Origin: Anoxybacillus amylolyticus
Lineage (GTDB): Bacteria; Bacillota; Bacilli; Bacillales; Anoxybacillaceae
DNA length: 64,000 bases
NCBI RefSeq assembly: GCF_001634285.1
Contig: NZ_CP015438.1
Span: 492,501-556,500 of the forward strand
Reading direction: 5' to 3'
Shown here piece by piece: positions 13,050 to 30,278 of the stretch (its first letter is position 1; each line of letters opens with the position of its first letter). The notes under the pieces were generated by a model, which saw only the letters and a list, made by a program, of their open reading frames with translations, was not told the origin of the DNA and made no database searches. The translations under genes and the position numbers were made by a program.

Positions 13050-13964
13050 ATGCGCGTAACACAAGGAATGTTGGCTTCTAATATGCTGAGAAATTTAAGC
13101 ACAAGCTACGCACAACTTGGAAAATATCAAGACCAACTATCGACGGGAAAAAAGATTAATCGACCTTCGGACGACCCGGTTGTGGCGATGAAAGGGATGG
13201 TGTACCGCACGAATTTAACTGAGGTACAGCAGTTTAAGCGTAACTTTTCGGAAGCGAATAGCTGGATTGATAATTCTGACTCGGCGCTTGATGAAGCGAC
13301 ACAAGTGTTACAAAGGATCCGCGAACTTGTTGTGCAGGCAAGCAACGACACATACGAATCAAGCCAAAGAGCCTCGATTGCTCAAGAAGTAAAGCAATTG
13401 ACAGATCATCTTGTCACTATTGCCAATACAAAAGTAGGAGATAAATATATTTTTAACGGAACAGATACACTAAAACAGCCGGTAGACTTGAATCAAACCC
13501 CACCTGTTGCACCAACGAACTCGCAACAAGTCAATATTGAGCTATCACAAGGAATTTATATACCGGTAAATGTGGATGCAACGAAAATATTTGGATATGA
13601 TACTACAGCAACGGCGGCAAACGGCAATAGATTATTTAGTGATCTGCAATTTTTAAACAACGACTTAAACGATCCGACGAAGTCAGGGAAAGACATTAAC
13701 CAATATCTTAGCTACATCGACAAGCATATAAATAATTTCCTAAGCGCCCGTGCGGAATTAGGGGCACGAATGAACCGCATAGAATTAATGGAAGATCGGG
13801 TCGACCAACAAGAGGTAATCGCTAATAAAATTTTATCCGATAATGAAGATGCTGATATCGAGCAAGTAATTACGGATTTAAAAACACAAGAAAGCGTACA
13901 TCGTGCCGCTCTCGGTGTCGGTGCCCGTATTATTCAGCCGACGCTTCTTGACTTTTTACGTTAA
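13050..13964 (+). CDS. flgL: FlgL, hook-filament junction protein 3
   Basis: FlgL forms the second junction layer, on which flagellin polymerises. The 304-residue protein shows the flagellin-like N-terminal coiled coil (RVTQGMLASNMLRNLSTSY, then KKINRPSDDPV) and a flagellin-like C-terminal helix (IEQVITDLKTQESVHRAALGVGARI). A short variable central domain lies between. Length agrees with the 298-residue B. subtilis homologue. A hairpin directly after the stop may reduce downstream expression. Confidence 0.95.
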   Translation: MRVTQGMLASNMLRNLSTSYAQLGKYQDQLSTGKKINRPSDDPVVAMKGMVYRTNLTEVQQFKRNFSEANSWIDNSDSALDEATQVLQRIRELVVQASNDTYESSQRASIAQEVKQLTDHLVTIANTKVGDKYIFNGTDTLKQPVDLNQTPPVAPTNSQQVNIELSQGIYIPVNVDATKIFGYDTTATAANGNRLFSDLQFLNNDLNDPTKSGKDINQYLSYIDKHINNFLSARAELGARMNRIELMEDRVDQQEVIANKILSDNEDADIEQVITDLKTQESVHRAALGVGARIIQPTLLDFLR

Positions 13965-15627: not shown

Positions 15628-16443
15628 ATGAGAATCAATCATAATATTGCAGCTCTTAACACTTACCGCCAACTAACATCGGGTACAAGCGCAGCAGCTA
15701 AAAACATGGAGAAGTTATCTTCTGGTCTTCGCATCAACCGTGCCGGCGATGACGCAGCAGGTCTTGCGATCTCTGAAAAAATGCGCGGTCAAATTCGCGG
15801 GTTAGATATGGCTGCGAAAAACTCTCAAGATGCGATTTCTTTAATCCAAACTGCAGAGGGCGCATTGAATGAAACTCATGCGATTCTTCAACGCATGCGT
15901 GAACTAGCAGTTCAAGGTGGTAACGATACAAACACAACTGCAGACCGCAACAACATTCAAGACGAGTTAAATCAATTATTGTCTGAAATCGACCGCATTT
16001 CTAACACAACACAATTTAACACTAAAAACTTGTTAGACGGTTCATTTATTGGCACATTCCAAGTAGGTGCAAATGATAATCAAATTATTTCATTGTCTAT
16101 TAACTCAATGAGCACTGGTTCAGGCGCTCTTAATGTGGCTGGTATTTCTGTTGGTTCAAACGCTTTATCGAGCCAAGCTATTGCATCGATTGATAACGCA
16201 ATTAGCGCGGTGTCTAAAGAACGTTCTAAACTTGGTGCATATCAAAACCGTCTAGAGCACACTATTAACAACTTGTCAACATCATCGGAGAACTTGACTG
16301 CTGCTGAATCTCGCATCCGCGATGTAGACATGGCAAAAGAAATGATGGAATTCACGAAGAACAACATCCTTACTCAAGCAGCACAAGCGATGCTTGCGCA
16401 AGCTAACCAACAACCACAAGGCGTTCTTCAATTACTTCGCTAA
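15628..16443 (+). CDS. hag: Flagellin
   Basis: Flagellin polymerises into the filament. The 271-residue protein has conserved D0/D1 helices at both ends (MRINHNIAALNTYRQL, SSGLRINRAGDDAAGLAISE, and NILTQAAQAMLAQANQQPQG to LLR) but a very short variable part (about residues 140-195), smaller than the 304-residue B. subtilis protein. The surface segment is rich in Ser, Thr and Asn and could accept O-linked sugars, which fits the glycan genes downstream. Strong ribosome site and typical highly-expressed codon choice. CsrA and FliW probably control its translation. Confidence 0.97.
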   Translation: MRINHNIAALNTYRQLTSGTSAAAKNMEKLSSGLRINRAGDDAAGLAISEKMRGQIRGLDMAAKNSQDAISLIQTAEGALNETHAILQRMRELAVQGGNDTNTTADRNNIQDELNQLLSEIDRISNTTQFNTKNLLDGSFIGTFQVGANDNQIISLSINSMSTGSGALNVAGISVGSNALSSQAIASIDNAISAVSKERSKLGAYQNRLEHTINNLSTSSENLTAAESRIRDVDMAKEMMEFTKNNILTQAAQAMLAQANQQPQGVLQLLR

Positions 16444-16452
16444 TATAACCAA

Positions 16453-16528
16453 GTCCCTCTTTTTAGAAGAGGGACGTTTAAAAAAGTATCGTGTCTTTCC
16501 TACGATAAGAATGACACGATATTTTTTT
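16453..16528 (+). terminator. Double terminator after hag
   Basis: First hairpin GTCCCTCT/AGAGGGAC (16453-16475); second TATCGTGTC (16487-16495) with GACACGATA (16513-16521) followed by seven T. Together they should stop most hag transcription before the glycan island. Confidence 0.85.
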
Positions 16529-16558
16529 AAACGAGTTAATTAAAAAGGGATGTGTGCC

Positions 16559-18505
16559 ATGAAGCCATTACTATCGTTATGTATAATTGTGAGAAATGAA
16601 GAGAAGGTATTACAACGTTGTCTTGATTCCGTGCATGGTATTGTCGATGAAATTATTATTGTTGATACTGGGTCAACTGATTCCACAAAAGAAATTGCTC
16701 TAAAGTATGTAGATAAAATATATGATTTTGAGTGGACAAATAGCTTTGCGGATGCCCGAAATTATGCACAAAATCAAGCAAGCGGGGAATGGATTTTAGT
16801 TCTTGATGCAGATGAGTATGTTGATAGGGAGAGCCTGCAACAACTAATGACAATATTAAAAAACTCAAAGGAAAATATAGATGGTTATGATGTGACAATC
16901 TATAACTTCATGGGTACGTATGGGGAGCGTGTCCTTCAGCATAAAAGTACAAGAATATATCGGAATAGCCCTCATATTCGCTATTATCGCTCCATTCACG
17001 AACAACTACAAAAAAATGGTAATCATGAATTAACGACAGAAATGATTCCTTTTATTATTTATCATTCAGGATATATGACTCAAACTGTCAAAGAAAAGAG
17101 AAAGAATGAACGTAATGCCCCGTTAATTGAAAAGGAATTGAATTTTTCTAATAGTAAAGGTTTTGATTACTTTAATTTGGCAAATGAGTACCTCTCTAAA
17201 GCTGAGGTAGAAGAAGCTCTAAAGTATTACCTAATGGCTTATAAGTTGAAACCTGATTTTAGATTTAGTTGGGTTTCAATTTGTATTGTGCAAATTATTT
17301 TGTGTTTGAAATATTTAGAAAGATTTAATGATGCGTTAAATGTTATAAGCGATGCCGAGCATATTTACAGTGAAACTCCTGATTTCAAATATTTAAGAGG
17401 CGAAATTTATTATTTGCAGCATAGATACGATGACGCCTTAGAAGTTTTATCAGAGCTAGTAAACAATAAACATAAGTATCAAAAATTTATAAAGAGTATC
17501 GAGTATTTAGAGTATGATCCGCATATTTTACTTGGGCATATTTATAAACATAAAGGAAATCTACAAGAAGCCGTCCATCATTATACGAGTGCATTGTCTA
17601 TAAATAATAAGAGTTACGAATCCTTATATCATGTTTTAGGCTTGTTGGCTAAATGTCATTCTGGAGATGAGGTTATCCAATTTTTAGAAAGACGAAATTG
17701 GTTTACTAATGAAAGGGATATATTGCTTTTATTAAGAGTTGCTCTTAACTTAGGCCTAGAAGCGATTACTGAATATTATGTTTCAAAGTTAAAAGAAGAA
17801 TACGTTAGAAAAGGATTCGAAATTAAACTAAATATTTTAAAAGGAGAATATGAAGAAGCAATTACACAATTACTAAATGGTTCTTTATATTCTTTAGAAA
17901 CTTATATAAAAAATGGTTGCTTAGATTTGTACGATGTTTTGATTGCTTCATTAATTTCCGGAAGATTAGAGGTTGTTCAATTGCTAATCACTATAGTTGG
18001 AGATGAAAAGGAAAGAGAGTTTTTGAAATTTATTATTCAAGACTCGGATTGCGTTCCGGAACAAAGTTTTTATCTTCATTTAATCGAGCGAACCATTCAA
18101 CTGCAAAAATATGACCTATTCGAGCAATTAATTGGTTTGCGAAATCAATTTAGCAACAAAATTAATCTTTATCTTGGACATTTGCTGCATCGTTATGAAT
18201 TTATTGAAGTAGCTCTTGGATTTTACCAAAGCATTGAAGACTTCAATGCTTTGGATGCAGATGGTTTTGTTAATATAGTTGAAGGCCTAGCCATGAAGGA
18301 ACAGTTTGCAGAAGCCATTCAATATGGGTTGTTAGCCATCAATCTCGGTCATCATGATTTTCGATTATATAAATATGTGTTGGAACTGATGAAACTAAGT
18401 GGGATGCAAGAAGAACGCCTTACTATTTTACAGGAGGCTAAAAACATTTACCCTGACAGCAAATGGCTTATACAGCAGAGGGAATTAAGAGGGAGACTTA
18501 TATGA
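16559..18505 (+). CDS. Family 2 glycosyltransferase with TPR-like C-terminus
   Basis: The N-terminal 230 residues form a GT-A fold of family 2: SLCIIVRNEEKVLQRCLDS, IIIVDTGSTDSTKEIA, then the metal-binding VLDADEY. Such domains use nucleotide sugars. The remaining 400 residues are helical repeats of TPR type (LKYYLMAYKLKP, LLGHIYKHKGNLQEAVHHYTSALS), usually protein-binding. There is no membrane segment. This layout is common in protein glycosyltransferases. I start at the second ATG because AAAAAGGG is adjacent to the first and 9 bases from the second. It is the first gene after hag, so flagellin is the obvious candidate target. Its N-terminal domain is paralogous to the last gene of the island. 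Base composition is more AT-rich than the flagellar genes. Confidence 0.82.
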   Translation: MKPLLSLCIIVRNEEKVLQRCLDSVHGIVDEIIIVDTGSTDSTKEIALKYVDKIYDFEWTNSFADARNYAQNQASGEWILVLDADEYVDRESLQQLMTILKNSKENIDGYDVTIYNFMGTYGERVLQHKSTRIYRNSPHIRYYRSIHEQLQKNGNHELTTEMIPFIIYHSGYMTQTVKEKRKNERNAPLIEKELNFSNSKGFDYFNLANEYLSKAEVEEALKYYLMAYKLKPDFRFSWVSICIVQIILCLKYLERFNDALNVISDAEHIYSETPDFKYLRGEIYYLQHRYDDALEVLSELVNNKHKYQKFIKSIEYLEYDPHILLGHIYKHKGNLQEAVHHYTSALSINNKSYESLYHVLGLLAKCHSGDEVIQFLERRNWFTNERDILLLLRVALNLGLEAITEYYVSKLKEEYVRKGFEIKLNILKGEYEEAITQLLNGSLYSLETYIKNGCLDLYDVLIASLISGRLEVVQLLITIVGDEKEREFLKFIIQDSDCVPEQSFYLHLIERTIQLQKYDLFEQLIGLRNQFSNKINLYLGHLLHRYEFIEVALGFYQSIEDFNALDADGFVNIVEGLAMKEQFAEAIQYGLLAINLGHHDFRLYKYVLELMKLSGMQEERLTILQEAKNIYPDSKWLIQQRELRGRLI

Positions 18506-20574
18506 AAACAAGTATCATTATTCTCACTCATAATCAACTTGACTATACAAAGCAATGTATCGAAAGCATTAGAAAATACACAAACGAAAAAAGCTATGAA
18601 ATCATTGTTGTTGACAACCACTCTACTGATGGAACAGTAGAGTGGTTGAAACAACAACGCGACATCCAAGCCATTTTTAATGATGAAAATTTGGGGTTTC
18701 CGAAAGGCTGCAATCAAGGAATAGAGATTGCATCAGGAGATAATATTCTGCTTTTAAATAACGACACAGTCGTAACGAAAAATTGGCTTGATAATTTGTT
18801 AATATGCCTGTATAGTTCTGATGATATTGGGGCGGTCGGACCCATAACCAACTCGGCAGCATATTATTCAACGATTCCGGTGAACTATACATCGATTGAT
18901 GAAATGCATCGGTTTGCCGCAGGCTATAATGTTTCTAACCCTAATAAATGGGAAGAAAGGTTAAAATTAATTGGTTTTTGCATGTTAATGAAAAGAGAGG
19001 CTGTAAATAGAGTAGGATTTCTTGATGAACAGTTTACGCCGGGGAATTTTGAGGATGACGATTACTCGGTCCGCTTACGCAAAGCAGGATACCGTTTGAT
19101 GCTCTGTAAAGATACGTTTATTCACCACTACGGAAGTGTATCGTGGAAAAAGGATGTTAATGCCTATTCTCGCGTTTTGACTGAAAATGAGAAGAAGTTT
19201 AAGGAAAAATGGGGAACAGATTCGAATTCATATCGAGTGGACTGTGAAATGGTGGAATGCATAAAGGCGCGTAAAGACGAAGCACTTTGTGTGCTTCATA
19301 TTGGTGCTGGATCAGGCGGTACTTTGTTGAAAGTGAAAAATGAGTATCCACTTGCCCAATTATATGGTGTTGAGAAAAATCCATTTTCAATTGAAGAGGC
19401 AAGCAGGTTCGCGATCATGACTGACAGCTTTGAGCATCATGACATCATTGATCGGGAGTTTGATGCCATTTTATTTAGCGGCGACACTTTTTTGCTAGAT
19501 AAAAGGCTGCTTCAATTTATTGTAAGGCATCTTAAAGAGAATGGATTGTTTATTGCGAAGCTTCCTAATATTGGCCATTGCTTAGTGATACAGGACTTAT
19601 TAGACGGCGGTAACCCTGTTTTGGATCGTAATATGTACAGTTTTTCACAAATTTACTACCTGTTAAAAGAAGCGGGATTCCGAACCTCTATCTCTGGACT
19701 AAAGCCTTTTATTAGCGACAGCCAGCAGCATTTTATGGATCAGTTAGCGACTATATATGGAGATAGTGTTCGTCCGATGCTGGAGTCCAGCTACTTTTTA
19801 GTGGCTGCACAGTTTGAAAATCGTCAACTCTTATCCTTACTAGATGAGCTTATGTCTGGGAAAAACGTATGGGCAGAATTACAGAATTATTTGCCAGAAC
19901 AAATTATTACCACAATTAAAGAAAATAATCATAATTCATTGGATGTATTGAATCGATTGGCAATTGAAAATTTTGCAGCTGGACATCATGAACATGTTTT
20001 ACCTTATTTGCACGCTGCTTTTGAAATGGAACCAGATCATGCGGATACCCTTTATAATTTAGCTTTTGTGCTGAATTCGTATGGAGAGAAAGAATTGGCT
20101 AACCGATATTTGTCCTTCATTAAAAATCCGGATGAAGAGGTTCAAAAGTTGTTTGAGGAAATTAATGAAAAGCCGCTGAAAAACGTTCAAACGCTTACAT
20201 TTTTGTTGCGTCGATTGGAGTTCGAGGTTGATTTAGAAGAAACGAAACAAGCAATTGTGCAGGAATTAAGGGGAAATGAAATTGATGAAACGCTTATAAA
20301 AGAAGTATTGAACACATGCATCATCGACAAAATTAAAGTGCTTCAGTCCCTTGCGATAATTTGTTTTGAGCACGGGTTGCACGAACATGTTTTGCCTTAT
20401 TTTCATGTTGCTTACGACCTTGATCCAACGAATGGAGATACTCTTTACAATTTAGGTTATGTACTGCTTTATTATGGGGAATACGAATTGGCAGAAAGAT
20501 TCTTACAGCAAATTCAGCAGCCTGATGAACAAGTATTAGATTTATTAAAGGTTGCAAGAGGAGAGTCTTTGTAA
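18502..20574 (+). CDS. Three-part protein: glycosyltransferase, methyltransferase-like domain, TPR pair
   Basis: The 690-residue protein begins with a family 2 glycosyltransferase (SIIILTHNQLDYTKQCIE, IIVVDNHSTDGTVEWL, LLLNNDTVV; about residues 1-250), of the rhamnosyltransferase-like type. A class I SAM-methyltransferase-like region follows (LHIGAGSGGTLLKVK at about 275-289, later FDAILFSGD and LKENGLFIAKLPN). The C-terminal 200 residues hold two similar TPR blocks, HHEHVLPYLHAAFEMEPDHA and LHEHVLPYFHVAYDLDP, evidently an internal duplication. The start overlaps the previous stop (ATGA). It may both add and methylate a sugar on a protein target, but whether the middle domain is active cannot be told. 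Confidence 0.8.
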   Translation: MKTSIIILTHNQLDYTKQCIESIRKYTNEKSYEIIVVDNHSTDGTVEWLKQQRDIQAIFNDENLGFPKGCNQGIEIASGDNILLLNNDTVVTKNWLDNLLICLYSSDDIGAVGPITNSAAYYSTIPVNYTSIDEMHRFAAGYNVSNPNKWEERLKLIGFCMLMKREAVNRVGFLDEQFTPGNFEDDDYSVRLRKAGYRLMLCKDTFIHHYGSVSWKKDVNAYSRVLTENEKKFKEKWGTDSNSYRVDCEMVECIKARKDEALCVLHIGAGSGGTLLKVKNEYPLAQLYGVEKNPFSIEEASRFAIMTDSFEHHDIIDREFDAILFSGDTFLLDKRLLQFIVRHLKENGLFIAKLPNIGHCLVIQDLLDGGNPVLDRNMYSFSQIYYLLKEAGFRTSISGLKPFISDSQQHFMDQLATIYGDSVRPMLESSYFLVAAQFENRQLLSLLDELMSGKNVWAELQNYLPEQIITTIKENNHNSLDVLNRLAIENFAAGHHEHVLPYLHAAFEMEPDHADTLYNLAFVLNSYGEKELANRYLSFIKNPDEEVQKLFEEINEKPLKNVQTLTFLLRRLEFEVDLEETKQAIVQELRGNEIDETLIKEVLNTCIIDKIKVLQSLAIICFEHGLHEHVLPYFHVAYDLDPTNGDTLYNLGYVLLYYGEYELAERFLQQIQQPDEQVLDLLKVARGESL

Positions 20575-22187
20575 TGAATGACAAAAAAATTGCCTTTATT
20601 TGTTGTGTTAATAATCGAGCTTTATATGAAGAATCTGTACGGTATGTAAAATCTCTTCATGTGCCAGTGGGATATGAAATTGAATTAATTGCTATCGAAG
20701 GTGCTTACAGTATCACTTCAGGATACAATCAAGGAATGAGGCAGACAGATGCAAAGTATAAAGTGTATTTGCATCAGGATGTGTTTATAGTTAACAAAAA
20801 TTTCTTATATGATATTATTGCTCTTTTTGAAAAGTATCCTAAATTAGGGTTGATTGGAGTAGCTGGGGCTAAAACAATTCCAAAAAACGGTGTTTGGTGG
20901 GAGAGCACGCAACGATTTGGCAAGGTTTATGACAGTCATACTGGGGAAATGAAGTTATTAAGTTTTAAAGATACAGAACTAGATTATGAACCTGTTCAAG
21001 CGATCGATGGTTTAATAATGGTTACTCAATACGACATTCCATGGCGGGATGATTTGTTTACGGGCTGGCATTTTTATGACCTTTCGCAATGTCAAGAGTT
21101 TTGGCTAGCGGGTTACGAGGTAGGGATTGTACGCCAAAATGAGCCATGGTGCATACACGATTGCGGTATAGTGAATGTGAAAAATGGTTTTGATAAGTAT
21201 AGAAGAAAATTTATGGACGTCTATGGAGAAGAAGTCCGGAGATTAAATAAACAGTTTTTGCCTCTTGTGAGTGTGTTAATCCCTACTTATAATCGTCCGT
21301 ATTATTTTGAACTTGCTTTACAAAGCGTACTAAATCAAACTTATGAAAATATTGAGATCATTGTGTGCGATGATAGTACAAATGATGGGGTGAAAAATGT
21401 AATAGAGCCTTATTTAAAGAAATACAGTCACATTAAATACTATAGAAATGATCCGCCATTGGTAGCCGGAAATTTTGATCGCTGTTTTGAGTTAGCTAAA
21501 GGTCAATATATTAATTATTTAATGGATGACGATTTGTTTCATCCAGAAAAAATAGAAAAGATGATTCAGTATTTTGAAACTCATAAAGATGTGATACTTG
21601 TTACATCGTATAGAAAATTGATTGACGAAAACGGATATGAGCTACCTGATTTGCCAACTACTAAGAAACTTTTTTATGAAGATACGATTATTGACGGAAA
21701 AGTACTGGGAGATTATATGCTTAAAAATAACGTTAATGCCATAGGGGAGCCAACGACTGTGCTATTTAAAAAGCAACATTTGTGCGAGACCTTTGGGCAT
21801 ATTAATGGCCGAAGAGTCCCAATACTTAATGATTTGACATCGTGGATATTGCTCTTAGAGAAAGGAAAGGCTGTATATATATCTGAACCATTAAGTTACT
21901 TTAGGCAACATCCCGGTCAAAATCAAAAATCATTAAAGTTTGCCAAGAATGCGATAGGAGATTGGATATACTTAATAACACAATCGCGTAACAAAGGTTT
22001 TTTAGCAGTTGAAACGGATTATAAGCTGGCATTGAATAACGTGCTCAAAACGGCTCACTATGTCCTACAATTGTATATTAATGAGTCTCAAACAAATTTG
22101 CTTGATTACGAAGAATTGAAGTCCAACTTTGAAATACTAACTACTGAAATTGTAGGAAACGTTCAAAAAACCGATATTCAATGTTAG
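20574..22187 (+). CDS. Tandem glycosyltransferase (StrF-like plus family 2)
   Basis: The 537-residue protein contains two transferase-like domains. The first (1-230) starts KKIAFICCVNNRALYEES and has VYLHQDVFI and GLIMVTQYDIPWRDDLFTGW, a pattern of the StrF-like glycosyltransferase group. The second (about 235-460) is a clear family 2 domain: VSVLIPTYNRPYYFELALQS, IIVCDDSTNDG and YLMDDDLFHPEKI with the metal-binding aspartates. It ends with a helical tail. The start shares one base with the previous stop (TAATG), so it belongs to the same transcript. Two domains suggest two linkages or a processive role; the sugars are unknown. Confidence 0.82.
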   Translation: MNDKKIAFICCVNNRALYEESVRYVKSLHVPVGYEIELIAIEGAYSITSGYNQGMRQTDAKYKVYLHQDVFIVNKNFLYDIIALFEKYPKLGLIGVAGAKTIPKNGVWWESTQRFGKVYDSHTGEMKLLSFKDTELDYEPVQAIDGLIMVTQYDIPWRDDLFTGWHFYDLSQCQEFWLAGYEVGIVRQNEPWCIHDCGIVNVKNGFDKYRRKFMDVYGEEVRRLNKQFLPLVSVLIPTYNRPYYFELALQSVLNQTYENIEIIVCDDSTNDGVKNVIEPYLKKYSHIKYYRNDPPLVAGNFDRCFELAKGQYINYLMDDDLFHPEKIEKMIQYFETHKDVILVTSYRKLIDENGYELPDLPTTKKLFYEDTIIDGKVLGDYMLKNNVNAIGEPTTVLFKKQHLCETFGHINGRRVPILNDLTSWILLLEKGKAVYISEPLSYFRQHPGQNQKSLKFAKNAIGDWIYLITQSRNKGFLAVETDYKLALNNVLKTAHYVLQLYINESQTNLLDYEELKSNFEILTTEIVGNVQKTDIQC

Positions 22188-22269
22188 AGTGCAGATATTG
22201 TCTAAAGATTCCTAATCCACATCAGCTTTTTAAAATTAGCATATGTTCAATTTGAGAAATAAATATATA

Positions 22270-22291
22270 TAAGTTGCAATAAAGAATTTCC
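22270..22291 (+). repeat. Short sequence shared with the 47-kb repeat
   Basis: TAAGTTGCAATAAAGAATTT and following CC match 19 of 22 bases with 47234-47255. It lies in the 224-base AT-rich gap before the formyltransferase gene; otherwise that gap shows no gene. Confidence 0.45.
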
Positions 22292-22411
22292 GATTTTTCG
22301 TTTCCGTTTTTATCTCAATACGAGCTGATATGGTATAACGTGGAAGGTAGTAAGCTGGATGTAAAACAAAATTAGATGACGATTTACTTATAAAAAGGGG
22401 TCGACTTGTAA

Positions 22412-23281
22412 TTGAAAAAATATCTTTTCGTTGGAAACAGGGTTGGGGTTTTGAAATTTTTAATAGAATCTGGGTATCACATCGAGAAAATACTTATTCC
22501 TACTTTCAACTATGTTCAAACATACCTAGATAAAACAGGTACAAAATATGAAATATTTCATAATAAAAACGAGCTTTTATCAAAAATTATAAATACAGAT
22601 TTTGATGTTTTAGTCTCAAATGGTTGCCCATTTATACTGCCTGTTTCCCAGCTCAAAAAAGGGCATCAGATCTTTGTTAATATTCATCCCTCATACTTGC
22701 CGGATTTAAGGGGGAAAAGCCCGATTAATGGAGCGATCCTGTTTAATAAAGATCCGGGGGCGACATGCCATATAATGGATGATGATATTGATTCAGGTGA
22801 TATTATTTCACAAGTTAAATTTCATTATAGTGATGATTTAGACTTAGGATTGCTATATAAACTATGTTTTATCGCTGAAGTTGACGCGTTTAAAGAAGCT
22901 ATTCGAGTGAACTTTTCCCCGAAAAAATCACAGATAATTGGAGAGAACTATATTTATTTTTCAAGTTCTCACAGCGATTTACTCATCAATTTTGATGATA
23001 GTGCTGAGAAGATTTGCAAGCAAGTCAAGGCTTTTGGCGTTAGATCGCAGGGGGCACGATTTACTTTCAAAAATCAAGAGTTTATTGTATTAGAAGCGCG
23101 TGTTATTACAAACAAGTATCTTTTGTCAAAATTAGATGATTATAAAAACTTACAGATAGCGTTTATTTATGACGATAACATTGTCTTTAGAAAGGATGGT
23201 AAGTTTGTAAAATTCGGAAAAATTATAGGAAAGATACATTATTTGGAGGAAGGCGACATATTGAAAAATGAGTTTAAATAG
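22412..23281 (+). CDS. Sugar N-formyltransferase-like protein
   Basis: The 289-residue protein has the formyltransferase fold shared with Met-tRNA formyltransferase. The catalytic triad is visible: Asn90 and His92 in FVNIHPSYLP, and Asp127 in DDDIDSGDII. LPDLRGKSPINGAI forms the substrate loop. It would transfer formyl from 10-formyl-tetrahydrofolate. With an aminotransferase and rmlAB nearby, the likely acceptor is a dTDP-amino-deoxy sugar, as in the VioF/FdtF group; the exact sugar is inference. The C-terminal 90 residues resemble the OB-type domain of this family. A TTG start with AAAAAGGGG upstream is used. The gene is flanked by repeat sequence on both sides and is more AT-rich than its surroundings, suggesting a separate insertion. 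Confidence 0.78.
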   Translation: MKKYLFVGNRVGVLKFLIESGYHIEKILIPTFNYVQTYLDKTGTKYEIFHNKNELLSKIINTDFDVLVSNGCPFILPVSQLKKGHQIFVNIHPSYLPDLRGKSPINGAILFNKDPGATCHIMDDDIDSGDIISQVKFHYSDDLDLGLLYKLCFIAEVDAFKEAIRVNFSPKKSQIIGENYIYFSSSHSDLLINFDDSAEKICKQVKAFGVRSQGARFTFKNQEFIVLEARVITNKYLLSKLDDYKNLQIAFIYDDNIVFRKDGKFVKFGKIIGKIHYLEEGDILKNEFK

Positions 23282-23330
23282 AACAGCAATTTTGTTTATG
23301 TATATACATGCAACTGGGGAGTTTAACTTG

Positions 23331-23500
23331 TTTTTTCGACTGTCGGAGGCAAGCCAAAGGCTTGCCTGCGTTACGCGTTCGCGTGATAGAGAACCGAACA
23401 ACGAGCCGCTTCCCAGACAAATTTATTTGTCTGGGAAGCGGTGTTGTTGGGTCGCTCGAAAGTCGAAAAATGTTAACACTTCAATGTGCATTTATATAGG
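23331..23500 (+). repeat. Structured repeat element, copy 1
   Basis: A gene-free block in the glycan island. It starts TTTTTTCGACTGTCGG and ends AGTCGAAAAATG-TTAACACTTCAATGTGC-ATTTATATAG, which also ends the copy near 47.4 kb. Inside are hairpins AGGCAAGCC/GGCTTGCCT, TTACGC-gttc-GCGTGA, and a perfect 17-bp stem at 23406-23441 that is absent from the other copy. The arms TTTTTCGACT and AGTCGAAAAA can close the whole unit. No protein is encoded that I can support. Confidence 0.7.
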
Positions 23501-23514
23501 AAGCGGGGATGTTT

Positions 23515-24216
23515 GTGAAAATAGCAATTATGCAGCCTTATTTATTTCCCTATATTGGATATTTTCAGCTTATCCACACTGTTGATGTATTTGTGTTATA
23601 TGATGATGTTCAGTTTATTAAAAAGGGATGGATTCATAGGAATAGGCTGTTAGTCAACGACAAAGACTATCTATTTACATTAAGTTTGCAAAAATCGCCA
23701 AGAGAAACGATTATTAAAGAAAAATTTTTTTCCGACCAGTTTGATTATGAAAAAGGAAAGCTATTGCAATTAATTGAGCATAGCTATCGGAAAGCCCCCT
23801 TTTTTAACGAGGTGTATCCTCTTATACAGCATATTATAAGCCATCAGGATCGAAATGTATGCTCTTTTATATATCAATCGTTAGTAGCGATTTGTGGTTA
23901 TTTGGAAATAAAGACTCGTTTTATTTTTTCGTCTGAAATCAATAAAAATAATGCGTTAAAAGGTCAGGAAAAAATTATCGAAATTAATAAATTATTGAAA
24001 TCTGATTGCTATATTAATCCTATCGGGGGTACAGAGCTTTATTCTAAAGCGAGATTTAGGGAAGAAGGTTTAGAGCTTTATTTTTTAAAACCTAAACTAA
24101 TACAATATAAACAATTCGGTGCTGAATTTATTCCATGGTTGTCGATCATTGATGTGTTAATGTTTAATTCCAAAGATATCGTGAAAAATTTTCTTAATGA
24201 GTACCAATTAATTTAG
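23515..24216 (+). CDS. WbqC-like protein
   Basis: The 233-residue product begins KIAIMQPYLFPYIGYFQLI, followed by DDVQFIKKGWIHRN, the signature of the WbqC family. Such proteins recur in O-antigen and dTDP-amino-sugar clusters, but their reaction is not established to my knowledge. A GTG start is preferred, since it gives the standard MKIAIMQP beginning and GCGGGG sits 6 bases upstream; the ATG two codons earlier is possible. Its ribosome site lies at the very end of the repeat, so the repeat provides part of its leader. Confidence 0.82.
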   Translation: MKIAIMQPYLFPYIGYFQLIHTVDVFVLYDDVQFIKKGWIHRNRLLVNDKDYLFTLSLQKSPRETIIKEKFFSDQFDYEKGKLLQLIEHSYRKAPFFNEVYPLIQHIISHQDRNVCSFIYQSLVAICGYLEIKTRFIFSSEINKNNALKGQEKIIEINKLLKSDCYINPIGGTELYSKARFREEGLELYFLKPKLIQYKQFGAEFIPWLSIIDVLMFNSKDIVKNFLNEYQLI

Positions 24217-24247
24217 TATAAACTAAAACAGTGAGGAATCAGTTTGG

Positions 24248-25360
24248 ATGGAAAAAATTCCTTTTTTAAAGCCGAACTTAATAACATTAGATTCATATAA
24301 ACACTATATTCTAGAAATAGACAATAGTAAAATTTACACGAATTACGGTCCATTAAACGACAAGTTTGAAAAGAGAATTTTAAGCGAATATTTCAATGAT
24401 TCAGGGGCTGTAACCACTGTAAATAATGCGACGCTAGGATTGATTTTGGCGATTTCTCAGCTGAAACGACCTCAGGGCAAATATGCTCTTATGCCAAGTT
24501 TTACATTTTCCGCGACGCCTTTAGCTGCTATGTGGTGTGGATTAGAACCTTATTTTATCGATATAAATGAAGATGATTGGTTTATGAACGAAACACAACT
24601 GGAAGAAGTGTTGCATCAACTGGGAGATGAAGTGGCGGTTGTTGTTCCATATGCTACATTTGGGAACTATTTAGATCTTTCTTATTACCAGCAGCTACAT
24701 CAATCGGGTATTCCAGTGGTTGTAGATGCGGCGCCTTGCTTTGGTACTACCTATAATGGACAACATATCGGTCAGGGTTTCGGTGGGGCGGTTGTCTTTA
24801 GTTTCCACGCTACGAAATCTTTTGGAATTGGTGAAGGTGGATTAATCTATAGCTATGATCAAGAGTTAGTAAAAAATATTAGGATTGCCGCTAATTTTGG
24901 TTATTATGGAAAGCGGGAGTCGATTGCGTTCGGACTTAACGGAAAAATGTCTGAATATTTCGCGGCGATCGGATTAGCTACATTAGATGTGTACCAGCAA
25001 AAAATTTCACAAAGAGAACAACTTTATAATATTTATCTTGAGGAAATAATAGAAGCAGGCCTATTGCAGCAAGGATGGGGTGTTCAAACAACGAAGGGGA
25101 GAATACCTTTTCAATTTTTTTCAATATTGTGTCCTCAAGATGAGCAGAATACGTTTTATATAGAAAAATTTGAACATCACAATATTCAAACTGTTTCTTA
25201 TTTTTCTCCAGCCTGTCATCAGCAAAAGCAGTTCATGAATTGTCCATGCGCCGATCTTATGGTAACAAATGAAGTGACAAAGCGGGTTCTAAGTCTTCCG
25301 TTTTGGGAAGAGATGGATCGGTCTATTGTTAGGCGCATTGTCCATACAATTGTGAAGTGA
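24248..25360 (+). CDS. DegT/DnrJ/EryC1-type sugar aminotransferase
   Basis: PLP-dependent enzymes of this family aminate keto-sugars bound to nucleotides. The 370-residue protein shows the substrate loop TNYGPLNDKFE, MPSFTFSATPLAAMW, PLP-contact Asp160 in VVVDAAPCFG, and the Schiff-base lysine Lys190 in FHATKSFGIGEGG. With rmlA and rmlB downstream, dTDP-4-keto-6-deoxyglucose is a likely substrate, giving a 4-amino sugar for the formyltransferase. 3-aminotransferases look similar, so the position of the amino group is not fixed. 23 bases separate it from rmlA. Confidence 0.85.
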   Translation: MEKIPFLKPNLITLDSYKHYILEIDNSKIYTNYGPLNDKFEKRILSEYFNDSGAVTTVNNATLGLILAISQLKRPQGKYALMPSFTFSATPLAAMWCGLEPYFIDINEDDWFMNETQLEEVLHQLGDEVAVVVPYATFGNYLDLSYYQQLHQSGIPVVVDAAPCFGTTYNGQHIGQGFGGAVVFSFHATKSFGIGEGGLIYSYDQELVKNIRIAANFGYYGKRESIAFGLNGKMSEYFAAIGLATLDVYQQKISQREQLYNIYLEEIIEAGLLQQGWGVQTTKGRIPFQFFSILCPQDEQNTFYIEKFEHHNIQTVSYFSPACHQQKQFMNCPCADLMVTNEVTKRVLSLPFWEEMDRSIVRRIVHTIVK

Positions 25361-25383
25361 ATAATTGGTAGGAGGCTATATAA

Positions 25384-26127
25384 ATGAAAGGCATCATTCT
25401 CGCCGGTGGGACGGGATCCCGCCTTTATCCGCTAACGAAAGTAACAAATAAACATTTGCTTCCAGTTGGCAAATATCCGATGATTTACCATGCCATTTAT
25501 AAACTGAAAGAGGCTAATATTACTGATATTTTAATTGTGACTGGCCGTGAACATATGGGGGACGTTGTTAATCTTTTAGGCAGTGGTTCTGAATTTGATG
25601 TTCAGTTTACGTATAAAGTGCAGGACCAGGCTGGTGGAATTGCGCAAGCGTTAGGGTTATGTGAAGCATTTGTCGGCAATGATTTAATGACAGTTATTTT
25701 GGGAGATAACGTATTTTCTGATAGTATTGTGCAATATGTTAAAAATTTTAAAGAACAAGGGGCGGGAGCGAAAATTTTAATTAAAGAGGTAGAGGATCCT
25801 GAGCGATTTGGTGTTCCTGAACTCGAAGGCAATCGTATTAAGAGTATAGAAGAAAAGCCAAAGAAGCCGAAAAGCCGTTATGCGGTAACGGGAATTTATA
25901 TGTACGATGCAAAAGTATTTGACATTATTAAAGCATTAAAGCCATCGGCACGAGGAGAACTGGAAATTACCGACGTAAATAACGCCTATATTGAGAGAAA
26001 TGAGTTAACGTATGACGTTTTGGATGGATGGTGGACGGATGCCGGTACGCATTCATCTTATTTGCGGGCCAATGAACTTGCAAAAGATGTTGATTTTGGC
26101 GGTTTGTTTAATAAAAACATGAAATAA
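25384..26127 (+). CDS. rmlA: Glucose-1-phosphate thymidylyltransferase
   Basis: RmlA makes dTDP-glucose, the first step to dTDP-rhamnose and dTDP-amino sugars. The 247-residue protein has the nucleotide-binding start GIILAGGTGSRLYPLT, the sugar-site VILGDNVF and the EKPKKPKS segment. It is the short form (about 245 residues, like B. subtilis SpsI), lacking the C-terminal allosteric extension of the 290-residue enzymes. AGGAGG lies at the right distance. First of four adjacent rml genes. Confidence 0.94.
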   Translation: MKGIILAGGTGSRLYPLTKVTNKHLLPVGKYPMIYHAIYKLKEANITDILIVTGREHMGDVVNLLGSGSEFDVQFTYKVQDQAGGIAQALGLCEAFVGNDLMTVILGDNVFSDSIVQYVKNFKEQGAGAKILIKEVEDPERFGVPELEGNRIKSIEEKPKKPKSRYAVTGIYMYDAKVFDIIKALKPSARGELEITDVNNAYIERNELTYDVLDGWWTDAGTHSSYLRANELAKDVDFGGLFNKNMK

Positions 26128-26143
26128 TCGAAGGATGAATGGC

Positions 26144-26707
26144 ATGAGGGTGATTCAAACAATATTTGACGGTGTATTTGTATTGGAGCCTACAGTTTAC
26201 AAAGATGAGCGCGGTTTTTTTATGGAAAGTTATAATGAACAAACATTTCGTAAACTAGGTTTTGATATCCAGTTTGTGCAAGATAACCATTCTCTTTCTG
26301 TAAAAACGGGAACAATTCGAGGGTTACACTATCAACTAAATCCGAAAGCCCAAACAAAACTCGTTCGTGTGACTCGTGGTGTTATTTATGATGTGATCGT
26401 TGATATTCGTAAAGGCTCACCGACGTTTGGGAAATGGCAAGGATTTATTTTGAGTGCGGACAATAAACGGCAATTGTTAGTTCCTAAAGGATTTGCACAC
26501 GGTTTTTGTACGTTGATAGAAAACACAGAAGTTCAATATAAAGTTGACGAATATTATTCTCTTGAGCATGATCGGGGAATTCTTTGGAATGATCCGGCAT
26601 TAGGGATTGATTGGCCAGTAACGAATCCTGTTCTTTCGGAAAAAGACGCAAATCATCCATTGTTAGCCGATGCAGAAATGAATTTTGTGTGGGAGAGAAC
26701 TCTATGA
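26144..26707 (+). CDS. rmlC: dTDP-4-dehydrorhamnose 3,5-epimerase
   Basis: RmlC epimerises C3 and C5 of dTDP-4-keto-6-deoxyglucose. The 187-residue cupin protein shows DERGFFMESYNEQTF, the active-site strand TIRGLHYQ with its histidine, VDIRKGSPTFG and LVPKGFAHGF. The second ATG is chosen because GAAGG touches the first one and is 9 bases from the second. The 3' end overlaps rmlB (ATGA). Confidence 0.94.
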   Translation: MRVIQTIFDGVFVLEPTVYKDERGFFMESYNEQTFRKLGFDIQFVQDNHSLSVKTGTIRGLHYQLNPKAQTKLVRVTRGVIYDVIVDIRKGSPTFGKWQGFILSADNKRQLLVPKGFAHGFCTLIENTEVQYKVDEYYSLEHDRGILWNDPALGIDWPVTNPVLSEKDANHPLLADAEMNFVWERTL

Positions 26708-27735
26708 ATCTTTTAGTAACTGGTGGAGCAGGCTTTATCGGCAGCAATTTTGTCCGTTATATGTTGAATAAATATCCTGAATATAAAATCGTTAATTACG
26801 ACTTATTAACTTATGCTGGTAATTTAGAAAATTTAAAAGATATTCAAGAACATCCACGATATGTCTTTGTTAAGGGTGATATTAGAAACGATCAACTTGT
26901 TGATTATATTGTAAAGTCTCACCATATTGATGTGATTGTTAATTTCGCTGCTGAATCGCATGTGGATCGCAGTATTTCCGACCCAAATGTTTTCGTTAAA
27001 ACAAACGTATTGGGGACTCAAGTATTGTTAGATGTCGCGAGGGCGAACAATATTCAAAAGTATGTCCAAATTTCTACGGATGAAGTGTACGGCAGTCTAG
27101 GAGATACAGGGTATTTCACGGAAGAGACGCCGCTTGCTCCAAACAGCCCTTACTCAGCAAGCAAGGCAAGTGCGGATTTGCTTGTAAGGGCATATCATGA
27201 AACATATGGATTAAATGTGAATATTACACGTTGCTCGAATAACTATGGACCATATCATTTTCCTGAAAAGCTTATTCCATTAATGATAACAAACGCATTG
27301 GAAGGAAAAGAACTTCCTATTTATGGCGACGGCCAAAACATTCGTGATTGGCTCCATGTAAAAGATCATTGTGCAGCTATTGATTTAGTTATCCATAAAG
27401 GTAAACCAGGAGAAGTATATAATATCGGCGGGCATAATGAACGGACAAATAACGAAATAGTCCATTTAATTGTTGAAAAACTTGGGGTTTCCAGGTCGTT
27501 AATTAAATATGTAGCGGATCGTCCAGGGCATGACCGTCGCTATGCAATCGATTCTACAAAAATTATGACAGAACTCGGATGGAAACCACAATATACGTTT
27601 GACAAAGGAATTGAGGAAACGATTCAATGGTACATCAATAACCCAGATTGGTGGAAACGCATTAAGTCTGGAGAATATATGGCTTATTATCAAAAGCAAT
27701 ATGGTGAAAGAGAATGGGTAAACAAAAAATATTAG
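26704..27735 (+). CDS. rmlB: dTDP-glucose 4,6-dehydratase
   Basis: RmlB converts dTDP-glucose to the 4-keto-6-deoxy intermediate, the branch point between rhamnose and amino sugars. The 343-residue SDR protein has VTGGAGFIGSNFV, FAAESHVDRSI, STDEVYG and the catalytic YSASK. Length is typical. Its start overlaps rmlC and its end overlaps rmlD by 22 bases, so all three are co-translated. Confidence 0.96.
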   Translation: MNLLVTGGAGFIGSNFVRYMLNKYPEYKIVNYDLLTYAGNLENLKDIQEHPRYVFVKGDIRNDQLVDYIVKSHHIDVIVNFAAESHVDRSISDPNVFVKTNVLGTQVLLDVARANNIQKYVQISTDEVYGSLGDTGYFTEETPLAPNSPYSASKASADLLVRAYHETYGLNVNITRCSNNYGPYHFPEKLIPLMITNALEGKELPIYGDGQNIRDWLHVKDHCAAIDLVIHKGKPGEVYNIGGHNERTNNEIVHLIVEKLGVSRSLIKYVADRPGHDRRYAIDSTKIMTELGWKPQYTFDKGIEETIQWYINNPDWWKRIKSGEYMAYYQKQYGEREWVNKKY

Positions 27736-28574
27736 TTACTGGTGCGAAAGGACAATTTGGCACAGAGATGGTCAAATTGTTAAAAGACATGGAATATGAA
27801 ATATATGGATATGGACGAACAGAACTTGATATAACGGATTTTCAGCAAGTGAAGAGTGTGATTGACCATATCCATCCTAGTGTTGTTATTCATGCTGCTG
27901 CTTATACAAAGGTAGATGCGGCAGAGTCCGAACCAGACCAAGCATTTTTAGTGAATGCATACGGAACAAGAAACATAGCCGTAGCGTCAGAACGTATAGG
28001 TGCTAAGTTTGTTTATATAAGTACCGATTATGTGTTTGACGGCACCGCCAACGTACCTTATAACGAGTTTGCTTTTACGAATCCGATAAGTGTATATGGA
28101 AAAAGCAAACTGGCCGGTGAACAGTTTGTAAGAGACCTTCATTCTAAATTTTTTATTATTCGAACATCGTGGGTTTACGGAAAACATGGAAATAATTTTG
28201 TGAAAGCAATGTTAACACTAGCGCAAGAAAAAAGAGAACTGTTCGTGGTTGATGATCAAATTGGATGCCCAACTTATGCGGTTGATTTGGCTAGCTACAT
28301 TTTCCAACTGATTCAGACTGAAAAATATGGAGTCTATCATATTTCTAATTCAGGACACTGTTCTTGGTATGAATTTGCAAAAGCCATTTTCGAACAGGCT
28401 AATGTTAATATAGTAGTTAATCCTTGTAAAACGAAAGACTATCCAAGACCTGCTCAACGCCCTGCGTATTCTGTATTGGATCATATGGCTCTGCGATTAA
28501 ATGGATTTAAGGAATTAAGACATTGGTGCGAGGCATTAAAGGAATTTATGAACGTTTATGGGGTGAAACCTTGA
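27714..28574 (+). CDS. rmlD: dTDP-4-dehydrorhamnose reductase
   Basis: RmlD reduces the keto group to give dTDP-L-rhamnose using NAD(P)H. The 286-residue protein has ILVTGAKGQFGTEM at the start, HAAAYTKVDAAES, STDYVFDG and the catalytic YGKSK, then RTSWVYG. The end overlaps the next glycosyltransferase (TTGA). Presence of all four rml genes means the island can supply rhamnose by itself. Confidence 0.95.
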   Translation: MGKQKILVTGAKGQFGTEMVKLLKDMEYEIYGYGRTELDITDFQQVKSVIDHIHPSVVIHAAAYTKVDAAESEPDQAFLVNAYGTRNIAVASERIGAKFVYISTDYVFDGTANVPYNEFAFTNPISVYGKSKLAGEQFVRDLHSKFFIIRTSWVYGKHGNNFVKAMLTLAQEKRELFVVDDQIGCPTYAVDLASYIFQLIQTEKYGVYHISNSGHCSWYEFAKAIFEQANVNIVVNPCKTKDYPRPAQRPAYSVLDHMALRLNGFKELRHWCEALKEFMNVYGVKP

Positions 28575-29638
28575 CAACATTAGCGTTAGTCATGATTGTA
28601 AAAAATGAAGAACGGCATCTTAGCCGTTGTCTGCAAAGTGTGAAAGATATTGTCGATGAGATGGTGATTGTCGATACAGGATCTACAGATCGTACAAAGG
28701 AAATCGCTTATGCATTTGGTGCGAAAGTATTCGATTTTGAATGGATAAATGATTTTTCCGCAGCTCGGAATTACGCCATTAAAAAGTCCACAAGTGACTG
28801 GAATTTAGTATTGGATGCAGATGAATATATAATGAATAACTGCGGAAGCAGGATACGTACCTTTATAGAAAAAAACGAAAGAGTAATTGGTCGGATTAAA
28901 AGAATTGATGAGTTTATTCAAGATGGAGAGAAAAGATATGCTCAGTCTTATTTATCTCGGTTGTTGCCTAAAGGTGTAAAATATGTCGGAAGAGTTCATG
29001 AGCAGGTAGAGTCCGATTTACCAAGACAAAACTTGGATATCGAAGTGTATCATGACGGATACGTTTATACAGATAAAACGGGACGAAACCTCAAGTTGTT
29101 GTTGCTGGAATTAGAAAGAGATCCTCTTAATGATTACGTTTTGTATCAAGTAGGAAAACAATACAAGTTGCGACAACAACTGCGACAAGCGGAGTTGTAT
29201 TTTGAAAAGAGCTACCATCTTGTCCCATTGAAATCATGGTACCGCCATAGTTTAATTATTGATTATTTATATACGATTATAGGAAATAAATCGTTTGAGA
29301 GAGGTTTACAATTAATTGAAACAGAGCGGGATCGATTTGCTGATTCTCCAGATTTTCATTTCGCATGCGGTTTATTTTATATGGACTTAATTTTTAGCGA
29401 TGTTAATAAATATATTCACTTATTTCCGCTCATTGAGCAAACTTTTCTTCGATGTTTAGAAATAGGAGATACAGATAAATACGATAGTGTAAAAGGGACA
29501 GGAAGCTTCCTTGCTTCTTATAATTTAGGTGTATTCCATGAGGTTCTTGGTAATATGAATAAAGCTATTTCATTCTATCAACAAGCAGCGAGCCAACAAT
29601 ATGAAAAAGCTATGGAACGATTGAAAGTTTTGAGTTAA
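28571..29638 (+). CDS. Family 2 glycosyltransferase with TPR tail
   Basis: The 355-residue protein starts at a TTG overlapping the rmlD stop, giving TLALVMIVKNEERHLSRCLQ. VIVDTGSTDRTKEIAYAFG and VLDADEYIM mark the GT-A domain; helical repeats of TPR type fill the last 150 residues. The catalytic part is clearly paralogous to the first gene of the island (both have IVDTGSTD.TKEIA and FDFEW.N.F..ARNYA), so the island is bracketed by two related enzymes. It probably adds a sugar made by the rml genes to a protein or growing glycan. Transcription ends at the palindrome just beyond. Confidence 0.82.
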   Translation: MTTLALVMIVKNEERHLSRCLQSVKDIVDEMVIVDTGSTDRTKEIAYAFGAKVFDFEWINDFSAARNYAIKKSTSDWNLVLDADEYIMNNCGSRIRTFIEKNERVIGRIKRIDEFIQDGEKRYAQSYLSRLLPKGVKYVGRVHEQVESDLPRQNLDIEVYHDGYVYTDKTGRNLKLLLLELERDPLNDYVLYQVGKQYKLRQQLRQAELYFEKSYHLVPLKSWYRHSLIIDYLYTIIGNKSFERGLQLIETERDRFADSPDFHFACGLFYMDLIFSDVNKYIHLFPLIEQTFLRCLEIGDTDKYDSVKGTGSFLASYNLGVFHEVLGNMNKAISFYQQAASQQYEKAMERLKVLS

Positions 29639-29666
29639 GTACATTTTTTGAAAATAACAGATTCTA

Positions 29667-29700
29667 TACTAAAGAGCCTATCTATGTAGGCTCTTTAGTA
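29667..29700. terminator. Long palindrome after the glycan island
   Basis: TACTAAAGAGCCTA and TAGGCTCTTTAGTA form a perfect 14-bp stem with a 6-base loop. No T-run follows on the plus strand, so stopping power is uncertain, but position between two operons supports a terminator or boundary. The rest of the 265-base gap is AT-rich with no gene. Confidence 0.6.
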
Positions 29701-29858
29701 TGGAATATACGTTCGTATCCGTGTTATAGCTAACGTTTCGCAACCTTTGCATAATATGAGACGTTTTTTAAATATCATTGAATAAAAATGATTTATTTCA
29801 ACTAACGGGTTGTTTTTGTTTTTTCCTCATCTTCCCCTTCACAACCCTTCATTTTGAT

Positions 29859-29903: not shown

Positions 29904-30278
29904 GTGACCATCGACCGTATTTCTTCACAACCTTCTTTTTCGTTTTCGGATATAAGCAGCCAAAAGGCTTCAAATGCGGTGCCGGTGCAACAGACAGACG
30001 ATCAGCCGAAAGCGGAGGAGCAGAAAGAGACGAAAGAATCTTCCAAGGAGTTATCAAAAGATCAGCTGGAGCACATTATTAAAGGCATGAATGAGTTTTT
30101 GCAGCCGAGCCAGACATCGTTGAAGTTTGAGCTGCATGATGAACTGAAAGAATATTATGTGCAAATTGTCGATGAGCGGACGAAAGAAGTCATTCGCGAA
30201 ATTCCGCCGAAAAAGCTGTTGGATATGTATGCAGCGATGATGGAGTTTGTTGGGTTAATTGTCGATAAGAAAATTTAA
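29904..30278 (+). CDS. flaG: FlaG family protein
   Basis: FlaG proteins are associated with filament length and motility. The 124-residue product has a disordered Ser/Gln/Glu-rich start (about residues 1-55) and the conserved C-terminal domain with LKFELHDELKEYYVQIVDERTKEVIREIPPKK. B. subtilis YvyC has the same place before fliD. GTG start with AAAGGAG upstream. Base composition returns here to that of the other flagellar genes, marking the end of the island. Confidence 0.9.
   Translation: MTIDRISSQPSFSFSDISSQKASNAVPVQQTDDQPKAEEQKETKESSKELSKDQLEHIIKGMNEFLQPSQTSLKFELHDELKEYYVQIVDERTKEVIREIPPKKLLDMYAAMMEFVGLIVDKKI

Follow-up and report, generated by a model that had tools for sequence, protein, structure and literature searches.

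What are the genes for that separate hag, the flagellin gene, from flaG in the thermophile Anoxybacillus amylolyticus? We analysed a window of 64,000 nucleotides around this locus (NZ_CP015438.1, positions 492,501 to 556,500; contig C1, one of three that make up a 3.16 Mb genome). The hag-flaG interval is 13.5 kb long and is taken up by eleven AT-rich open reading frames (ORFs), arranged head to tail on the + strand from 16559 to 29638 of the window, several of which overlap by a few bases. An earlier note on this DNA had read these genes as a flagellin glycosylation island, and our data support that reading: place and content match the islands published for Geobacillus, the first transferase (GTa) is a homologue of Listeria GmaR, the same frame of genes recurs in relatives, and the flagellins vary with the island. 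It is very probable that the island serves flagellin glycosylation; the glycan and its acceptor we infer. The fuller proposal, a modular island of the GmaR type that O-glycosylates flagellin in a stepwise pathway, appears likely as a whole.

Gene content and the first transferase

Pfam and NCBIfam domains were found in the eleven products in the following order: GT2 with tetratricopeptide repeats (TPR); GT2 with a weak methyltransferase domain and TPR; PF13712 with GT2; formyltransferase; WbqC; DegT aminotransferase; RmlA; RmlC; RmlB; RmlD; and a last GT2. The RmlA/C/B/D, formyltransferase and DegT domains agree with the genes for dTDP-rhamnose and for an apparently formylated amino sugar that the earlier note had claimed, and a WbqC gene, which it had not named, is added. 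Its count of four transferases also holds, as all four (GTa to GTd) are GT2 proteins; however, TPR-like tails are present on three of them and not just on the first and last, the tail of the last transferase being weak, with a single repeat that scores below the Pfam cut-off. The G+C content of the island is 0.29–0.39 in 1 kb windows, compared to 0.41–0.43 directly upstream and 0.42–0.46 directly downstream, in agreement with the claimed run of eleven AT-rich genes, all co-directional. For comparison we used a family set of 41 genomes (this one and 40 others) plus two named loci, those of G. zalihae and A. tepidamans DSM 16325. A short hag-flaG gap, which had been taken as the rule, is not the rule in this set: the distance ranges from 517 bp to more than 19 kb in the 29 of 40 relatives with both ends found.

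GTa (16559..18505, +) comprises GT2, TPR and C-terminal domains, and is the predicted initiating flagellin O-N-acetylglucosamine (O-GlcNAc) transferase; its start at 16559, the choice of the earlier note, has the better ribosome site as judged by eye. When compared with the Listeria GmaR structures, its GT domain matched 22ao (E 2.2e-52) and its residues 149–641 matched 7x9r (E 1.9e-50), so that the homology spans the GT, TPR, linker and C-terminal domains. On sequence grounds, a first transferase that is a full-length GmaR homologue is a new point relative to the published islands, and a literature search combining GmaR, glycosyltransferase and Geobacillus found no paper. As described in PMC9638930, GmaR attaches GlcNAc to flagellin and uses its C-terminal part to bind the repressor MogR.

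We compared the contacts that close the GmaR ring (PDB 22ao, 7x9r, 7x9s; PMC9638930) with GTa, the residue numbers being mapped by hand count from the printed alignment. H286, E293 and R589 are kept as H291, E298 and R605, whereas R617 is replaced by K638. Among nine island copies of GTa, R589 is present in all and H286 in eight, while the E293/R617 pair reads E/K in four, Q/E in two, and K/E, L/K and E/Q in one each, with a charge swap in G001. A Paenibacillus homologue keeps none of the four contacts. N545, through which GmaR contacts MogR, corresponds to Q560 in GTa; this position is Q or R in all nine island copies, and N in none of ten aligned sequences (Q, R or S). Searches for MogR itself gave no match in this genome (0/1), in the family (0/41) or in a wider draw (0/398), nor in any control genome, and so do not establish its absence.

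GmaR, known as a Listeria thermosensor and antirepressor, now stands beside other flagellin-linked transferases that keep the C-terminal domain without the MogR contact. We tentatively suggest that the C-terminal 'antirepressor' region originally served an old class of flagellin O-GlcNAc transferases for docking to flagellin, and that Listeria later recruited this region for binding MogR. Also speculative is the idea that in the thermophile's island the same GmaR fold starts an exchangeable flagellin glycan, and may still couple glycosylation to flagellar gene control through another partner. GTa and GTd also resemble the S-glycosyltransferase SunS in having a GT2 domain followed by helices, but with 80 and 86 bits, respectively, they fall far below the cut-off of 350 for this family (TIGR04195). 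SunS acts on a peptide.

A shared frame and its flagellin

The earlier note had proposed that the hag-flaG intervals of relatives be compared, and the comparison revealed the same frame with other cassettes in eight further family genomes and in both named loci. GmaR-type islands occupy the gap in at least 9 of the 41 family genomes (this one and 8 of 40); this is a lower bound because the presence of GTa cannot be judged on the broken contigs of several genomes (G003, G007, G013, G016, G029, G036). GTa stands first in all of these islands. Their last gene, GTd (28571..29638, +), encodes a GT2 protein with weak TPR, related to GmaR and SunS, and closes the islands with or without rhamnose genes; it is whole in 7 of the 10 other loci, covered to 0.8 in G. 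zalihae and to one fifth in G022, and the contig of A. tepidamans DSM 16325 ends before it. GTb (18502..20574, +), on the other hand, goes with the rml genes: its coverage is at least 0.9 in all seven other loci with rml, and the three loci that lack rml genes (G001, G008, G014) have either a stump of it or none at all. We concluded that GTa and GTd bracket an exchangeable sugar cassette in the islands of this family.

The cassettes differ widely. G028 has FdtA, a formyltransferase and another DegT aminotransferase; T. altinsuensis (G040) has a CDP-glucose 4,6-dehydratase, RfbH, a C-methyltransferase and a split transketolase. In G022, ATP-grasp and methyltransferase genes accompany an aminotransferase 80% identical to that of the window, and in A. 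tepidamans DSM 16325 an acetyltransferase of the NeuD/PglB/VioB type adjoins one that is 82–83% identical. G008 (L102, 15474-18250) carries a CDP-glycerol glycerophosphotransferase and a glycerol-3-phosphate cytidylyltransferase, and its flagellin may bear glycerol phosphate on GlcNAc. The island of G014 (L008, 9279-12814) looks as though a deletion had removed its middle: what is left is GTa, stumps of GTb and rmlD, and GTd. Relatives of the window's formyltransferase (Fmt) or WbqC protein were not found in any other stretch of this comparison at the same thresholds. One aminotransferase is accompanied in its cassette by an acetyltransferase in one strain, by genes for ATP-grasp and methyltransferase proteins in another, and by formyltransferase and WbqC in a third. 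The acyl genes change while the aminotransferase stays almost the same, which suggests that strains exchange the acyl group carried by one amino sugar. Between the island of G022 and flaG (L014, 17567-19256), an ADP-ribosyltransferase of the DarT type and a protein with a macro domain probably form a DarTG toxin-antitoxin pair; the 2016 Geobacillus paper names an 'appr-1-p' macro protein that may correspond to it.

Maf (PF01973, MptE-like in the Pfam copy used), which is the other kind of flagellin transferase, occurs in 13 of the 41 family genomes and in none of the nine with GTa. Initiation by Maf in the present strain was considered and rejected, since its genome holds no PF01973.

The probable acceptor, hag (15628..16443, +; 271 aa), is the only flagellin gene found in the genome; PF00669 has two matches, hag and a weaker one in the ORF at 13050-13964, which is flgL by position. 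The middle of flagellin, between its conserved ends, measures 109–111 residues in 10 of 10 places with GTa compared to 5 of 23 without. This count covers 43 places (41 genomes and the two named loci), 10 of which were left out as the whole neighbouring flagellin was not recovered; the flagellin next to flaG at loci L116-L121 is more divergent, did not reach the thresholds and was not used. The variable segment had been thought unusually rich in Ser/Thr, a claim that did not survive: its content of 0.216 falls inside the 0.14–0.27 of relatives' flagellins, and total Ser/Thr content does not clearly differ between flagellins with and without GTa.

Ten GTa-linked flagellins were compared column by column with nine short ones without GTa, chosen by length. 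At seven middle columns (103, 127, 143, 160, 163, 174, 182), no fewer than nine of the ten GTa-linked flagellins have Ser/Thr, and no more than half of the others do; two columns show the reverse. Position 127 is Thr in all ten GTa-linked flagellins and Asn or Asp in all nine others. None of 2000 label shuffles reached seven columns; however, the shuffles ignore descent, the GTa-linked flagellins are more alike (mean identity 0.86 among them, 0.70 between the sets) and hag is linked to the island, so the columns indicate joint inheritance and candidate sites, no more. The seven positions and the mutual exclusion of GTa and Maf are concrete predictions. The hag gene of the window is uninterrupted. 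In the relatives at L144, L024, L026, L102, L104 and L007, a group I intron interrupts hag close to residue 236 (Rfam RF00028, eight matches in six loci), L102 and L104 having a second one at the end of the C-terminal piece of hag; LAGLIDADG endonuclease ORFs lie near the split hag in L104 and L026.

Several observations count against the assignment of the island to flagellin. The co-variation described above can come from linkage and shared ancestry alone. A second rmlACBD set lies elsewhere in the genome, ∼40–46 kb before the window, beside a PF02397 lipid-carrier sugar transferase. Surface polymers often contain rhamnose and acylated amino sugars, and the island sugars might be destined for a cell-surface polysaccharide or a secondary cell-wall polymer, with the neighbourhood of hag due to chance. 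However, no flippase, polymerase or lipid-carrier transferase was found among the island proteins with Pfam or NCBIfam, as the earlier note had stated, and the other cluster has its own rml genes. In addition, GTa is a GmaR homologue, and the same frame fills the hag-flaG gap of several genera. A surface polymer is, in our judgement, highly improbable.

A different acceptor exported or displayed with the flagellum or spore, such as FliD or a collagen-like coat protein, has to be weighed as well. A flagellar gene was recognisable in the flanks of only 16 of the 79 fetched loci with a GTa match (many being short contigs), which suggests that GT2-TPR genes as a class have other acceptors. In this same genome, a third GT2-TPR paralogue (L207, G000 C1:404158-405240) adjoins a collagen-like ORF with GPV repeats, perhaps as another transferase-acceptor pair, and a GTa-like ORF near a collagen-like ORF in L156 likewise points to a transferase class that serves several acceptors. 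Against this, GTa lies directly behind hag, matches GmaR over its whole length, and is present in step with flagellin type. We consider an acceptor other than Hag very unlikely, and retain flagellin as the probable target.

The predicted glycan and its end sugar

Flagellin glycosylation by this island could proceed as follows. In the cytoplasm, GTa would put GlcNAc on Ser/Thr of newly made Hag, as its full-length homology suggests; GlcNAc is quite probably the first sugar. GTb, with its GT2, weak methyltransferase and TPR domains, is the predicted rhamnosyltransferase/O-methyltransferase. Judging from these domains and from its co-occurrence with rml, it would add rhamnose, which we regard as fairly probable, and perhaps O-methylate it. 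The donor would be dTDP-L-rhamnose made by RmlABCD, encoded on the + strand by rmlA (glucose-1-phosphate thymidylyltransferase, 25384..26127), rmlC (dTDP-4-dehydrorhamnose 3,5-epimerase, 26135..26707), rmlB (dTDP-glucose 4,6-dehydratase, 26704..27735; start inferred, the scans having begun one codon earlier) and rmlD (dTDP-4-dehydrorhamnose reductase, 27714..28574); RmlC and RmlB score above their NCBIfam cut-offs. For GTc (20574..22187, +; PF13712 domain and GT2), gene order and the presence of two transferase modules lead us to predict the addition of another rhamnose, of the terminal amino sugar, or of both. This end sugar would probably be Qui4N (viosamine): the aminotransferase would form it from the RmlB product, and Fmt and/or WbqC would then N-acylate it. 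GTd would belong to the shared core and might act as a second initiating transferase, and the glycoflagellin would be exported after glycan assembly. Exchange of the cassette between GTc and rml among strains would place different end sugars on one conserved core. The scheme offers a testable step order for a Gram-positive GlcNAc-rhamnose-amino-sugar flagellin glycan in a thermophile, with an apparent end-sugar exchange on a fixed core between species.

Other results do not fit the scheme easily. The methyltransferase domain of GTb is below the Pfam cut-off, the aminotransferase is below the cut-off of all seven NCBIfam models that it matched, and Fmt matches the solved sugar formyltransferases weakly. 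Among possible counterparts elsewhere, a Clostridioides metagenome-assembled genome (G781) searched with GTb gave no match, and an Anaerosolibacter locus of similar order (L222, see below) has no rml gene in its 20 kb.

The identity of the amino sugar depends on the DegT/DnrJ aminotransferase (24248..25360, +), whose best matches are DesI-like 4-aminotransferases and which we predict to be a dTDP-Qui4N (viosamine) synthase. Its best NCBIfam model is DesI (TIGR04427; 170.7 bits against a cut-off of 650), and its PDB matches are 3ju7 followed by 2po3, a CalS13-type 4-aminotransferase. For an island that has RmlB but lacks FdtA, dTDP-Qui4N would be the simplest product. The alternative is that the glycan is real but ends in a 3-amino sugar, either Fuc3N or Qui3N; such a sugar has been predicted for Geobacillus PSS1 and demonstrated in C. 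difficile. Because C. difficile makes Fuc3N, in its type B glycan, with no FdtA gene at the locus (PMC5207245, PMC5207246), the lack of FdtA is no proof of a 4-amino sugar; moreover, the G028 island has FdtA, a formyltransferase and its other aminotransferase in the same slot. That aminotransferase, however, is only 25% identical to the window's, which is most like DesI and 2po3 after 3ju7, and the sister-island aminotransferase adjoins the NeuD/PglB/VioB-type acetyltransferase. We therefore consider a 3-amino sugar unlikely, though worth keeping in mind, and lean moderately towards Qui4N.

A formyl and/or aminoacyl group on the end amino sugar is favoured to a similar, modest degree. Fmt (22412..23281, +; TTG start) is a divergent sugar N-formyltransferase. 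The active-site pattern of such enzymes is Asn-x-His ... Asp, and this N-H-D pattern is kept in Fmt within the formyltransferase domain (VNIHPSYLP ... DDDIDSGDII, aligned with 3tqq), although its score against the VioF-type model NF005755 is 38.8 bits for a cut-off of 238. The WbqC family protein (23509..24216, +) is well above the PF08889 gathering cut-off (225.7 against 21.3 bits), and is predicted to act in the N-acylation (aminoacyl) step. Pfam suggests a glycine transferase for this family; with no sequence relative in the PDB (best E 0.49), the predicted reaction is taken from family lore and gene context. Across the order, 15 of 397 genomes have WbqC relatives, counting this one. Of the 14 outside neighbourhoods, 13 were fetched, and each has an ORF that best matches the window's aminotransferase, some weakly; two (L151, L160) are flagellar loci. 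No ORF in these 13 had Fmt as its best match, so a WbqC-Fmt pair making an N-formyl-aminoacyl sugar is a guess. Viral contigs searched with the WbqC sequence alone yielded nothing confirmed; a profile search of these contigs gave 19 loci, used for alignment only.

Dispersed repeats flank fmt, and raise the question of whether the cassette is intact. Repeat B (22263..22373, +; ∼110 bp) lies before fmt and has 11 other matches in the genome at 82–98%. Repeat A (23301..23498, +; ∼198 bp, palindromic), between fmt and wbqC, has imperfect terminal inverted repeats, TATATACATGCA / TGCATTTATATA. Another 18 copies, which match the 161-base query over its full length at 85–94%, are spread over the chromosome and the two smaller contigs; there is also one copy at 77%, besides shorter pieces. 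Repeat A looks like a non-autonomous mobile element. The two repeats are at most 2 kb apart at four of the six places looked at. The cassette might thus be partly decayed after repeats inserted on either side of fmt, in which case only the GlcNAc-rhamnose core would be made; decay products do exist in relatives, such as the GTb and rmlD stumps of G014. As all eleven frames are open over the expected length and the formyltransferase pattern is kept, we judge decay to be improbable, and a complete cassette is the reading that we follow.

With respect to transcription, two stem-loops (16453..16529, +), the second with a U run at its end, form a probable hag terminator (stretch 16444-16530: −37.1 kcal/mol, z −8.7). 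Transcription of hag and of the island is therefore probably separated in part, and the island is probably expressed at a lower level or from its own promoter. Promoter-like sites are not enriched between 15200 and 30400 (47, compared to a shuffle mean of 56.1), and an Rfam scan of the window gave no match. A 20-pair hairpin without a U run (29662..29705, +; −28.5 kcal/mol, z −9.3) separates GTd from flaG (29904..30278, +), the right-hand boundary, which is followed by fliD and fliS.

Comparison with known systems

Viosamine has a precedent in the flagellin of P. syringae, which carries modified viosamine-rhamnose-rhamnose (PMC3927599). That island differs from ours in its genes (fgt1, fgt2, vioT) and its Gram-negative host, and the abstract of the paper names no GlcNAc. 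Listeria GmaR differs from GTa in that the latter sits in an island with further sugar genes.

In C. difficile type B, the flagellin glycan has the structure Fuc3N-Rha-Rha3OMe-GlcNAc-Ser. GlcNAc is added by GT1 and two rhamnoses by GT2, which has a methyltransferase domain, while GT3 belongs to the end group; the genes for all three, and an FdtB-like gene, lie after fliC (PMC5207245, PMC5207246). By domains only, this locus resembles ours in its flagellin, GlcNAc transferase, GT2 with methyltransferase, third GT, acylation gene(s) and aminotransferase, as well as in its rhamnose genes and an acylated amino sugar at the end. It differs in having the rml genes before fliC and Fuc3N with taurine-Ala-Gly, where the window has formyltransferase/WbqC and a predicted 4-amino sugar. 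As the gene order is largely the same, we predict by analogy GlcNAc, (O-methyl)rhamnose and then an acylated 4-amino sugar on Ser/Thr. The clostridial genome of Anaerosolibacter (G783, L222) has a flagellin, two GT2 genes like GTa/GTd, a GTb/GTc fusion and GTc in the same order as the window; the fusion is 58% identical to GTb over 303 residues and its GTc is 50% identical to ours. The rml set of this genome lies elsewhere, beside another GTb relative (L223).

The closest likeness is to Geobacillus, in which 18 of 36 strains have flagellin glycosylation islands at this place, of five types (De Maayer and Cowan 2016, PMC5109656). According to that paper, Type V has rmlABCD and no Maf, which is confined to Types I-IV. 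The present island shares with Type V its flaA2-flaG place, a similar size (13.4 and 15.8 kb in Type V), G+C drop, rmlABCD and absence of Maf. PSS1, one of the two Type V strains, also has a formyltransferase; as described there, it differs in having FdtA and FdtB (3-amino sugar), where the window island has a DesI-like aminotransferase, WbqC and no FdtA. The terms WbqC, TPR and tetratricopeptide do not occur in the paper's main text. The authors reported no pattern between flagellin type and island presence, whereas a link with flagellin type appears in our set when islands are sorted by the type of their first transferase. The flagellin-flaG place, the low G+C, the transferases with nucleotide-sugar genes and the presence of rml without Maf, as in Type V, are all found here, and the window island is therefore a new case of the published kind.

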